From positions 1 to 64,000 of the forward strand of contig JALEZW010000030.1 in NCBI GenBank assembly GCA_022772675.1: 64,000 nucleotides of DNA, given 5' to 3'. The DNA comes from Agathobacter sp. Its GTDB lineage: Bacteria > Bacillota > Clostridia > Lachnospirales > Lachnospiraceae. This document shows, piece after piece, positions 17,111 through 61,948 of this stretch (position 1 is the first letter of the stretch; every line of letters starts with the position of its first letter). The notes under the pieces were generated by a model. That model was not told where the DNA came from. It saw only the letters and a list, made by a program, of their open reading frames with translations, and ran no database searches. A program made the position numbers and the translations under genes.

Positions 17111-17174
17111 CATATATGGAGAGGTGGCTCTATTCGAGCCACCTTACGAATTAGATAATCAGCTTCTTACATGT
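17111..17174 (-). repeat. Dispersed structured repeat, shorter copy
   Basis: Read on the minus strand, this 64-bp stretch matches 60287-60350 at 57 of 64 positions by hand alignment. It holds the AGGTGGCTC/GAGCCACCT hairpin (9-bp stem) directly after the tex stop codon. Weaker similarity continues to about 17195. No T-run follows the stem, so it is not a standard terminator. Confidence 0.8.
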
Positions 17175-59579: not shown

Positions 59580-60108
59580 ATCCCATTTCCTCCAGTTTTT
59601 CTTTGATTTTTTCTCTTGACCGCTGCAGTCTGCTGGTAACAGTCCCTTTGCTGATATGTAATTGTTCGGCGATTTCTTTCGTGGAAAGATCAACACTGTA
59701 ATACATCAGAACAATGACCCGGTATTTTTCCGGCAGGTCATGAATCGCTGCTCTTAGCATTGCACTTGTTTCCCTGTGGATACAGGAAGTAAGCAGATCC
59801 GGTGTGGTAGCCGCAGAGTATTCCGAAGGGGAATCGGATAAATCTTCCTCTTTTAACACGTGGGAGGGTGCGATTTTCTGCCTTCGTTTTTCTTTGCGCC
59901 ACTGATTTTTCCACAGATTTGCTGTAATCCCGATAAGATATTTTTTTGCCTCCTCGACTGCAATGGTTTTGTCAATTTCCAGTGCTTTTAAAAAGGTGTC
60001 CTGGTACAAATCATCCGCAAGAGTTCTGCTTCCTGTGAGAAAACAGCAGAATCGGTATATATCCGTTCCGTATTTTTCTATGCATACTTCAATCTCCTCT
60101 GCATTCAT
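59569..60108 (-). CDS. ECF-type RNA polymerase sigma factor
   Basis: A 179-residue sigma-70-family factor with region 2 (about 10-75; DLYQDTFLKALE, YLIGITANLWKNQWRKEKRRQ) and region 4 (about 118-172; LPEKYRVIVLMYYSVDLSTKEIAEQL and KGTVTSRLQRSREKIKEKL, the helix-turn-helix). The first gene of the sigma-DUF4179-ABC operon. AAGGAGA precedes the ATG. It probably directs its own operon, whose promoter was not identified with certainty. Confidence 0.93.
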   Translation of the reverse strand: MNAEEIEVCIEKYGTDIYRFCCFLTGSRTLADDLYQDTFLKALEIDKTIAVEEAKKYLIGITANLWKNQWRKEKRRQKIAPSHVLKEEDLSDSPSEYSAATTPDLLTSCIHRETSAMLRAAIHDLPEKYRVIVLMYYSVDLSTKEIAEQLHISKGTVTSRLQRSREKIKEKLEEMGYER

Positions 60109-60258
60109 GTGAATCTCCTTTGTAATGAAAAGCTTTTCGTTTCATCGATGAACGATTACCCTTACAACTATATCATGTCGTCACTTCCATATTGATTGCA
60201 AGTTAATGAATCTTTATGATAGATTTTATCAATTTTTGTAACTATTCAGAACCCCTTA

Positions 60259-60418
60259 GAATAAGATAAGTAGATTCGTCATGCCTGCATGTAAGAAGCT
60301 ACTTATCTTATTCGTAAGGGGGCTCGAATAGAGCCACCTCCCCATGTATGAGCAAAATTAGCTGCGAAGCAGCGAGAAAGCACGACTTGTCGTGCGTTTT
60401 TGCAAATGCATGGGGAGG
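60259..60418 (+). repeat. Multi-stem structured intergenic repeat
   Basis: Arms 60259-60273 and 60299-60313 form a perfect 15-bp stem (GAATAAGATAAGTAG/CTACTTATCTTATTC). A GGCTC/GAGCC hairpin follows (60321-60335). CCTCCCCATG (60337-60346) pairs perfectly with CATGGGGAGG (60409-60418) around two further hairpins: GCTGC-GAA-GCAGC (60361-60373) and GCACGAC-TT-GTCGTGC (60380-60395), the latter followed by GTTTTT. 60287-60350 is shared with 17111-17174 in inverse orientation. No gene is seen here. Confidence 0.8.
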
Positions 60419-60505
60419 GGTTTTGAATAGACACTTTTTTATTTTTGAAAGAGAAATACATGTTGGAAAAGCCATCTGTCTGAATAGACCGGCATTTTCA
60501 TCATA

Positions 60506-60536
60506 TGATATAAGGGTCAAAAGGACCCTCATATCA
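60506..60536. repeat. ATGAGGG/CCCTCAT dispersed hairpin
   Basis: TGATATAAGGGTC (60506-60518) and GACCCTCATATCA (60524-60536) form a 13-bp stem with one mismatch around AAAAG. Members of the same family lie at 40296-40325 and 55122-55151. Confidence 0.75.
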
Positions 60537-60600
60537 TCATATGGAACATCGTAACTAATGAAATTAAGCATAGCTGGAAGGATTTATGAGGTTGTTTATA

Positions 60601-61045
60601 AATTTGACATACGCTGGTACGGGTGGAATTGAGGAATTAGAAGAAACACCCGTATAATGAACCGATACTGTACGGGTGAATTTGAACTTTTAAAAAAAAA
60701 CCGTACAATCAGCCGATACTGTACGGGTGAGTTTGAATTTTATGAAAAACACCCGTACAATCAGCCGATACTGTACGGGTGAAATCGAACTTTATGAAAA
60801 AACCCCGTACAATCAGTCGATACTGTACGGGTGAATTTGAGCGTTTTGAAAAAAAACCGTACAACCAGTCAAACTGTATGCGTGAAATCGAACTTTATGA
60901 AAAACACCCGTACAATCAGTCAAACTGTACGGGTGAGTTTGAGAAATATAAATAACACCTGTACAATAGACCGAAACTGTCCGGGCGAATTTACTCATTT
61001 TGAAAAAACGTCCGTACAGCGTGCCGAGACTGTACGGCTGAATTA
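60601..61045. repeat. Tandem array of ~52-bp terminator-like repeats
   Basis: Eight full units and one half unit repeat with a spacing of 51-54 bp; the equivalent G of CTG falls at about 60616, 60670, 60721, 60773, 60825, 60876, 60927, 60979 and 61032. Each unit has a CACCCGTACA/TGTACGGGTG stem around a 10-12-nt loop. On the minus strand the stem is followed by TTTTTCAT or a longer T-run, the signature of an intrinsic terminator. Central units are nearly identical and the outer ones diverge. Spacers are conserved too, so this is not a CRISPR. It lies directly after the minus-strand lysozyme gene ending at 61112. Confidence 0.9.
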
Positions 61046-61111
61046 GAGAATCGCGACAAGACCCTGTCCAATCCCTTATAAGAGCCCAACAATACTCTAA
61101 TTTCCAGTAAA

Positions 61112-61948
61112 TCAGACCGACAACACCATGGGTTTGGAATCAGGGACAACCACTTTCTTGTTTGAGGAGCTGAACCTGACAGTATCCGTGCAACCACCCG
61201 GGCTAAGCTTTACCTTTACAGTGGCAGTTGTTCCCTTTTTCATGGAAAGGGAGCTTTTCACAAACTTCACACCGGATGCTTCCATATAGGAATAGTTCAG
61301 ATCACAGAATCCTTTATCCGTGTTAGCACCCTCTAAACTTCCTTCGTTTGTGTACTGCCAGATATCCACTGCTGCCGGAAGTTTCGGTCTGCTTTCCCCG
61401 TAAGAGGCTGCCCACACCCTATAGCCCTTCAGCTTTGACCAGTCAAAATAATCCTTGAGATAAGAAGCGCTGGAATAAATCATCGGTGTATATCCGGCAT
61501 CCGCGATGACATCGCAGAAGGCTTTTGCTATAGCTGTGGTATTGCTTTTCCCGTCTGCAAAGCAGCCCTGCTTCTCGATATCGTATGCAAGAGGATAGTC
61601 CAGCTTCCTTCCATCCAGAATCTCCAGACAATACTCTGCCTCCTTCACGGCAGCTTCCGGCGTGCGGACACAGCAGACGTGATAGGCACCGACCTTTAAG
61701 CCGGCAGCCTTTGCCCCCTCATAATTGGCTTCAAACTGGGCATCCACATCCGGTGCCTGTCCCTCCCCGGTGCGCAGCATGACAAAATCCATATCACTTT
61801 CTGCCACCATTTCCCAGTCAACCACGCCATTCTTAGATGATACATCGAAGCCTTTCTGTAATGATAATGCCTGCACCTGTGTGACAGGTAATGCCGCCAG
61901 CAAAAGTGAGACCGCTATGCAGCATATAAAAAACTTTTTCATTCTCAT
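61112..61948 (-). CDS. Secreted GH25 lysozyme-like muramidase with truncated Big2-like tail
   Basis: A 278-residue exported protein. A signal peptide (about 1-28) precedes a GH25 domain (about 30-225): GFDVSSKNG, WEMVAESDMDFVMLRTGEG, VGAYHVC, and YDIEKQGC with the catalytic acidic pair. GH25 enzymes cut the bond between MurNAc and GlcNAc. The final 50 residues begin like a Big2/Ig-like domain (SMKKGTTATVKVKLSPGG, VRFSSSNKKVV) but stop after roughly half, just before the tandem array. The ATG overlaps the HepT stop (TAAATG), with AGGAGG 10 nt upstream. Confidence 0.9.
   Translation of the reverse strand: MRMKKFFICCIAVSLLLAALPVTQVQALSLQKGFDVSSKNGVVDWEMVAESDMDFVMLRTGEGQAPDVDAQFEANYEGAKAAGLKVGAYHVCCVRTPEAAVKEAEYCLEILDGRKLDYPLAYDIEKQGCFADGKSNTTAIAKAFCDVIADAGYTPMIYSSASYLKDYFDWSKLKGYRVWAASYGESRPKLPAAVDIWQYTNEGSLEGANTDKGFCDLNYSYMEASGVKFVKSSLSMKKGTTATVKVKLSPGGCTDTVRFSSSNKKVVVPDSKPMVLSV

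Follow-up and report, generated by a model that had tools for sequence, protein, structure and literature searches.

A tandem array of alternating inverted arms near the end of the window (by which we mean the whole 64,000-nucleotide stretch of Agathobacter sp. DNA that was analysed) is best read as a dispersed copy of a protein-bound DNA array. We put the probability of this reading at roughly 0.6; the likely partner would be the RSKSE-family protein encoded at C72:79877-80671, outside the window and 19 kb away on the same contig. At the level of sequence, the analysis established a pairing between genes of this family and tandem arrays, an arm core common to the dispersed arrays of one genome, a quantisation of array periods, a fixed polarity, and a difference in copy number between orthologous arrays.

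Structure of the array and its neighbourhood

By TRF, 60644-61044 holds 7.8 copies with a period of 52 bp, and 60617-60989 repeats as a double unit of 103 bp; an arm-chain script found 17 alternating arms separated by spacers of 19-21 bp (s1) and 15-16 bp (s2), as summarized in Table 1. The arm motif of arrays of this type is TACGGGYG/CRCCCGTA. These results bear out the initial annotation, which had described about eight units of 51-54 bp with CACCCGTACA/TGTACGGGTG stems behind a lysozyme gene and had seen the ends as degenerate and the middle as most uniform; the ends were indeed more degenerate than the middle. The neighbours at higher coordinates, all on the minus strand, encode a GH25 protein (PF01183, E 3e-31), a HepT-like protein (PF08780) and a MntA-like protein (PF18765), and the neighbour at lower coordinates, also on the minus strand, encodes a sigma-70-type factor. 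In an Rfam scan of the array all matches stayed below gathering scores and were mostly to miRNA families.

Table 1. Features of the tandem array in the window (positions are those of the window).
Feature	Position	Strand	Remarks
Whole array	60617..61045	.	17 alternating arms, ~8 units of 51-53 bp; dispersed copy, without an adjoining RSKSE gene
First '>' arm, TACGGGTG	60618..60625	+	start of the unit conserved as left end elsewhere
First s1 spacer	60626..60646	.	21 bp
First '<' arm, CACCCGTA	60647..60654	-
First s2 spacer	60655..60670	.	16 bp
Central units	60718..60855	.	neighbouring copies most alike: 85% over 86 nt
Hairpin and T-run sites	60701..61037	-	60726-60701, 60781-60750, 60831-60804, 60935-60905, 61037-61012; weak: 60984-60971
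Degenerate right end, TACGGCTG arm	61033..61045	.

The array has an ortholog on contig C36 of the sister genome G018. The best two flanking stretches were 95% and 98% identical (others 83-94%), and the arrays themselves about 78%. Copy number, which the initial annotation had proposed to compare between relatives, differed between the two loci, with 17 arms in the window and 13 in G018. The left-end unit that starts at 60618 was kept at this orthologous locus, at C7 of the host genome (G000) and at C20 of G018, and was truncated at C63 of G000. Two further differences between the orthologous loci lie near the array. A 194-bp palindrome-rich, MITE-like insertion at 60241-60434 is absent from the G018 locus; in the host genome it recurs on C64 (98% over 190 nt) and on C31 (88%), and a 63-nt piece of it lies at 17111-17173 of the window. 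In addition, a 36-bp indel at about 60498-60533, beside a ATCATATGA/TCATATGAT repeat, distinguishes the two loci.

Dispersed arrays in the host genome and in relatives

BLAST of the array against its own genome found additional places, and the host genome holds 11 arrays of the TACGG type in all: one each on C7, C31, C40, C42, C63 and C64, two on C53, and three on C72, the array at 60.6 kb among them. A single half-unit relic lies at C63:49687. The TACGG core is common to all 11 and the GYG extension to most; the C31 array pairs TACGGACT with CGCCCGTA, and the C40 array also has TCTCCCGTA and AACCGTA. The pattern CGGGYGN{18,24}CRCCCG matched 27 times in the host genome against 3 for the reversed control, and 64 times in G018 against 2. 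A named scan with the same pattern returned 70 stretches, with multiple matches in five Lachnospiraceae MAGs (CAMFDG01, CAMKQH01, JAFZNO01, CALWMW01 and JAILLF01, the last an Acetatifactor sp.); the remaining records had one match each, mostly in presumed GC-rich organisms, and are probably chance matches.

The stricter pattern TACGGGYGN{20,22}CRCCCGTA occurred 16 times in the host genome and not once in 396 other genomes of the family (a set excluding G018). When the 62 genomes of the genus were searched with a sequence-only model (R1), 6 had matches, namely G000, G018, G073, G079, G010 and G012. The arms varied by species, with GTACGGACTA in G079, TACGGATG with ATAACCGTA in G073, and TACGTATA with CATCCGTA in G012. 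TRF gave a period of 53 in three of the four stretches examined (L163, L164 and L170) and no array in the fourth (L168 of G010). Of the 397 family genomes 25, from 22 of 334 genera, contained the core pattern TACGGN{26,27}CCGTAN{15,16}TACGG, spaced at about 53 bp; 14 genomes had at least five forward matches, and among the matches listed the reversed control gave at most one per strand. The search of related genomes for the unit, which the initial annotation had suggested, recovered arrays in relatives, with arms that differ between species.

Because several arrays begin or stop at contig ends (L049, L074, L081, L082, L101, L115 and L123 among them), the lengths measured in these draft genomes are minimum values, and this class of repeat seems to break assemblies of gut bacteria. 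Another recurrent palindrome with different arms, CGGGTGTA...TACACCCG, was found in G066 (for example at C5:48692-48917; 9 matches against 1 for the control). No four-arm array was found in the viral contigs that were scanned.

The anatomy of the arrays was determined on 36 arrays from six genomes, after five weak chains had been dropped. Of 162 s1 spacers in this set 156 were 20-21 bp long, and of 159 s2 spacers 151 were 15-16 bp long. The arms were near-constant across arrays and species of the set, and the spacers were similar inside an array and different between arrays. Within s1, columns 2-4, 10-11 and 17-19 (numbered along the T-rich strand, with 0 as the first) were 93-100% A/T as array averages over 34 arrays, and with six linkage clusters these tract columns averaged 97% A/T, against 49% in the other columns. 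On the T-rich strand only 20% of the A/T in the tracts was A, and T stood almost without exception in columns 2, 3 and 11. Since the first two tracts are nearly always T on that strand, the constraint on s1 is not plain exchangeability of A and T. The spacing between the A/T tracts inside s1 is about 7.5 bp.

Pairing with the RSKSE gene family

The partner family emerged when 785 ORFs at 82 array loci in 25 genomes were clustered. An RSKSE gene lay directly behind the array in 10 of these 25 genomes, with the array on its 5' side in all 10 at a distance of 1-175 bp. Other ORF clusters at array loci covered 15 genomes (with an ABC-transporter-like representative), 8 genomes and 6 genomes. An early reading of the RSKSE link as that of an ordinary multi-copy family was reversed by the clustering.

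The pairing was then counted from the side of the gene. The sample of 70 RSKSE loci combined 30 best matches, part of which were known beforehand to follow an array, with 40 loci hand-picked for other genera and for flank length, whose flanks were unknown at the time of choice; four loci without a frame under the motif rule and two with too little flank were dropped, which left 64. By TRF, a tandem array lay within 900 bp upstream of 44 of the 64 genes, compared with 10 of 369 control windows, which came from the stretches of the second set (Fisher p 7e-35); the first set contributed 18 of 27 and the second 26 of 37. The other 20 of the 64 genes had no upstream array by TRF. Downstream arrays were seen at 9 of 66 RSKSE genes. 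A hand count in the first six genomes put an upstream array, with various arms and periods, at 17 of 20 RSKSE loci. The orientation was also fixed: in 49 of 51 arrays the gene-sense strand carried more A than T. Finally, RSKSE genes were present in 13 of the 14 genomes with at least five forward TACGG-array matches, against 113 of the 383 others (p 2e-6). G137 had 11 array matches and no RSKSE match at 1e-10. The sequences thus lend good support to a pairing of RSKSE genes and arrays.

Only 3 of 32 protein pairs at 55-65% identity had an arm 6-mer in common, and neither Mantel test of arms against RSKSE protein was significant. Since the arms turn over faster than the protein and the Mantel tests were non-significant, co-evolution of protein and arms is not demonstrated.

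The pairing may extend to arrays away from the gene. In the host genome the RSKSE gene on C72 lies directly behind a TACGGGYG array at 80.7-81.3 kb, and it is at this one array of the 11 that an RSKSE gene of matching type adjoins; the second RSKSE gene of the genome lies on C20 and is accompanied by a 73-bp array of a different kind. G018, which is about 80% complete, has the 64 sites mentioned above and three distant RSKSE paralogues on contigs without a listed array. A second arm type, AGGCAAGT/ACTTGCCT, was searched for in six genomes with controls that gave 0 matches. It matched 58 times at no fewer than nine places in G484, 77 times at three or more places in G481, and 10 times in G482, there always at the genome's own RSKSE gene; G000, G018 and G483 had 0 matches. 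Dispersal, as seen in G484 and G481, is therefore not special to one arm type, nor is it universal, as G482 shows.

The RSKSE protein

RSKSE proteins are about 265 aa long and share invariant RSKSE, PDF and YxEH residues, with E162, P192-D193 and E208-H209 as invariant positions and no K in the third motif as read. Based on these motifs and on PADLOC candidate models, they may be PD-(D/E)XK-nuclease-like. The C-terminal part of the PADLOC model PDC-S68 matched all 24 aligned proteins, PDC-S69 matched 21 of 24, and HEAT_CxxC_PD-DEXK matched 12 of 24. No Pfam or NCBIfam cut-off was reached (six proteins for NCBIfam), and no PDB chain matched. Among the Pfam families for the 24 proteins there was no Y1-type model (25 of 32 weak matches listed), and neither NCBIfam (6 proteins) nor Pfam gave a ToxN/CptN/TenpN-type match. 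By alignment search, RSKSE genes occur in 126 of 397 family genomes, or 113 of 334 genera.

Structure models and one weak domain match give leads only. Two structure models had a mean pLDDT of 40 and 43, which is too poor to use; the order of helices and strands in the first resembles a PD-(D/E)XK core, and the second has three strands and a helix. One of the 24 proteins had a weak Arm-DNA-bind_2 match (E 0.016). Relatives also occur on viral contigs and plasmids: in four viral-contig relatives (L226-L229) the domain sits on a RecD-like helicase and no tandem repeat was seen upstream, six of seven plasmid relatives (H1-H7, from unrelated bacteria) are annotated as AAA ATPases or RecD-like helicase, and an unverified 4.2-kb faecal 'phage' scaffold, without a tandem repeat, has a relative covering 95% of the RSKSE protein.

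Array periods follow the turns of the DNA helix

Among 88 distinct RSKSE genes, 52 had an array within 350 bp, and the 50 arrays with an autocorrelation of at least 0.55 were kept. Their periods fell into four classes, of 42 bp (1 array), 52-54 bp (31), 62-64 bp (10) and 73-75 bp (8), which correspond to 4-7 helical turns. The phase concentration R was 0.93 near 10.5 bp, a broad maximum that stayed at 0.92 or above from 10.25 to 10.75. The two weakly periodic arrays that were dropped had periods of 45 and 83 bp, outside these classes. Some arrays of the pairing sample lie far from the RSKSE gene and have periods such as 29, and 12 gene-distant tandem repeats in the stretches of the second set had periods of 30, 35, 36, 36, 39, 39, 45, 52, 56, 62, 77 and 104. 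In longer units one arm distance stays near 30 bp and the other grows: clear units measured 28/34 (L144), 29/33 (L149), 32/41 (L265) and 30/43 (L267), compared with about 29/24 at 53 bp, with a noisy consensus and several unreadable units. The RSKSE paralogues L133 (G481), L135 (G018) and L140 (G000) have 42-bp and 73-bp upstream arrays, the 42-bp array being the sole four-turn case. We infer that spacing by whole turns is a requirement of a protein that lies on one face of duplex DNA; we know of no RNA reason for it. Of the roles that the initial annotation had listed for the array, the gene pairing and the phasing of periods favour that of a protein-binding array.

A model of array function, and alternative explanations

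In the model that we propose, the RSKSE protein would bind each arm-s1-arm palindrome as duplex DNA, probably as a dimer, and neighbouring proteins would touch on one face of the DNA, which would restrict the period to whole turns. The RSKSE gene would be controlled through binding at its upstream array. Least certain is a further step, in which cutting or nicking at or near arrays would lead through repair to array expansion and, occasionally, to copying to new places. That the protein drives the spread of the arrays is a guess from the analogy with REPIN/RAYT and from the nuclease-like motifs. Several findings speak against the model: the 20 of 64 genes with no upstream array by TRF, the arrays of G137 with no RSKSE match in that genome, the many sites of G018 beside distant paralogues only, the two dropped arrays with periods outside the classes, the confinement of the second arm type to its own gene in G482, and the lack of a significant correlation between arms and protein.

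A narrower version of this model, which we regard as unlikely, would make the RSKSE protein a regulator or tamed nuclease that sets its own level, with the dispersed arrays acting as decoys or chromosome-structuring sites that spread by ordinary recombination without the protein. The position of the array 5' of the gene with fixed polarity and the helical phasing suit an operator, and the catalytic-looking residues, invariant as they are, mark a putative activity only. Taken alone, however, this explanation does not account for the arrival of arrays at 9-11 or more places per genome.

A role for the array as RNA appears less probable still. Here the array would give rise to a transcript whose processing yields repeat RNAs, and these would neutralise the RSKSE enzyme, as in type III toxin-antitoxin systems, and the orphan arrays would supply extra antitoxin. 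Type III systems have the same layout of a tandem array immediately in front of a nuclease-like gene (PMC5086642), and the units form hairpins with an A-rich sense strand. When the s2 hairpin was extended by two pairs, 89.0% of its cells in alignment A1 were paired and its covariation score was 0.198, a value that none of 500 shuffles reached. Much of this covariation came from the arm-adjacent base, which changes on both sides between species; it fits an RNA stem and a symmetric protein site equally and counts mildly for RNA. The s1 hairpin, on the other hand, showed no notable excess over shuffles. Within arrays we found no compensation between arms, with 1068 Watson-Crick cells across s2 (shuffled 1073.7 ± 4.1) and 1121 across s1 (shuffled 1120.0 ± 3.9). 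On the T-rich strand, the variable position of the arms had more G-U than A-C pairs (s2, 54 against 19; s1, 47 against 19), but within-array shuffles that included G-U gave p values of 0.79 (s2) and 0.71 (s1), against 0.94 and 0.44 for Watson-Crick pairs alone. Complementarity between the two arms does not reach past TACG or TACGG in some of the related species. This slight complementarity, the lack of within-array compensation and of a notable excess across s1, the quantisation of the period in DNA turns, the occurrence of orphan arrays in either orientation to genes, and the lack of a ToxN-type match in Pfam or NCBIfam all argue against an RNA antitoxin.

The initial annotation had favoured tandem intrinsic terminators that insulate genes, which now seems very improbable as a general function. 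Its observation of T-runs behind the hairpins on the minus strand was correct. A scan of 60100-61200 gave 8 terminator-like sites against 0.8 ± 0.9 in shuffles, and six of the eight, one of them weak, fell within the array, where all were on the minus strand and matched the gene direction. Under tighter criteria, which asked for 7 of 8 arm pairs and 5 T in 8, three of the eight hairpins passed on the minus strand and not one on the plus strand. Across the 36 arrays of the six genomes, at least half of the hairpins were terminator-like on one strand in 20 arrays, but 11 arrays had no such hairpin. Called genes flanked 19 arrays on both sides, and these genes were co-directional in 10 cases, convergent in 6 and divergent in 3 (the calls were greedy ORF calls, and some neighbours may be spurious); the T-rich strand agreed with the gene direction at 4 of the 10 co-directional loci and ran against it at 6, as combined by hand. 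A GC-rich hairpin with a T-run on the transcribed strand, the mark of an intrinsic terminator, was found in part at this locus of the window but not across the arrays as a whole, and termination would need no fixed helical-turn spacing. No better placed are neutral satellite-like repeats that lie beside a common gene by chance, which would fit the fast turnover of units and the change in copy number but not the conservation of arms and spacing between differing spacers, nor the association and period statistics.

Returning to the protein-bound array, its interest lies first in the fact that dispersed bacterial repeats are often without a known partner, and that here a simple genomic statistic links tandem arrays to a gene family. 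If binding is confirmed, the family would offer many natural protein-site pairs with quickly changing specificity, a route by which satellite-like DNA spreads in bacteria, and a testable reason for the spacing of arrays by whole helical turns.

Comparison with known systems

The pairing of arrays with RSKSE genes was not found in the open-access literature searched (PMC), and an earlier description elsewhere is possible. CRISPR arrays have constant repeats and unique spacers; here the spacers are alike within an array, in line with the initial annotation, which had set CRISPR aside. The BIMEs of enterobacteria consist of alternating inverted motifs with two spacer types, a layout that the present arrays share with a different motif, and we know of no RSKSE gene paired with them. 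The type III toxin-antitoxin systems ToxIN, CptIN and TenpIN likewise have a tandem array directly upstream of a nuclease gene, and an array lies upstream of 44 of 64 RSKSE genes. In these systems RNA from the array folds into pseudoknots to which the toxin binds, and the toxin is an endoribonuclease of the ToxN/CptN/TenpN type. Their toxins belong to another family, whereas RSKSE array periods follow DNA turns and many arrays have no adjoining gene. The PADLOC candidates PDC-S68 and PDC-S69 share a homologous C-terminal domain with RSKSE proteins, and the PDC-S68 models are about 1200 aa long, compared with about 265 aa for RSKSE proteins.

Among dispersed repeats, the STAR elements of Staphylococcus have a GC-rich motif, T(G/A/T)TGTTG(G/T)GGCCC(C/A), with a locus-specific spacer of 40-44 bp, are intergenic, and expand and contract; no paired gene is described in the available part of the source (PMC3532100). 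The arrays analysed here resemble them in having a short conserved motif between spacers, an intergenic position and a changing copy number. They differ in the motif, TACGGGYG/CRCCCGTA, and in having alternating inverted arms where STAR elements are direct repeats. The BOX elements of Streptococcus have conserved ends around a variable number of middle modules, and the accessible portion of that report describes no nuclease gene (PMC3049150); conserved ends and a variable middle are found here as well, with other modules.

The closest parallel is with RAYT (TnpA-REP) genes and their REP/REPIN sequences. These are palindromic repeats that lie both beside the gene and in intergenic positions, with several types per genome and tandem clusters next to the gene (PMC3116915). 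RSKSE arrays are likewise palindromic and occur both beside the gene and dispersed. REPIN palindromes have a GTAG or CGTC tag at one end (PMC3733652); some RSKSE-associated arms contain CCGTAG and many do not, the arms varying between genes. The two systems differ in that the RSKSE enzyme is putatively PD-(D/E)XK-like and matched no Y1/HUH transposase model among the Pfam families listed, and in that RSKSE arrays are long, strictly phased tandem blocks upstream, with arms that differ from gene to gene. We advance, tentatively and at somewhat less than even odds, a broader proposal: RSKSE proteins may form a large undescribed class of nuclease-like factors with sequence specificity, present in about one third of the sampled family genomes and in some with several specificities per cell, in which each member would be locked to its own fast-changing palindromic array, bound in helix register and spread through the genome, as a second and independent solution of the RAYT-REPIN kind.
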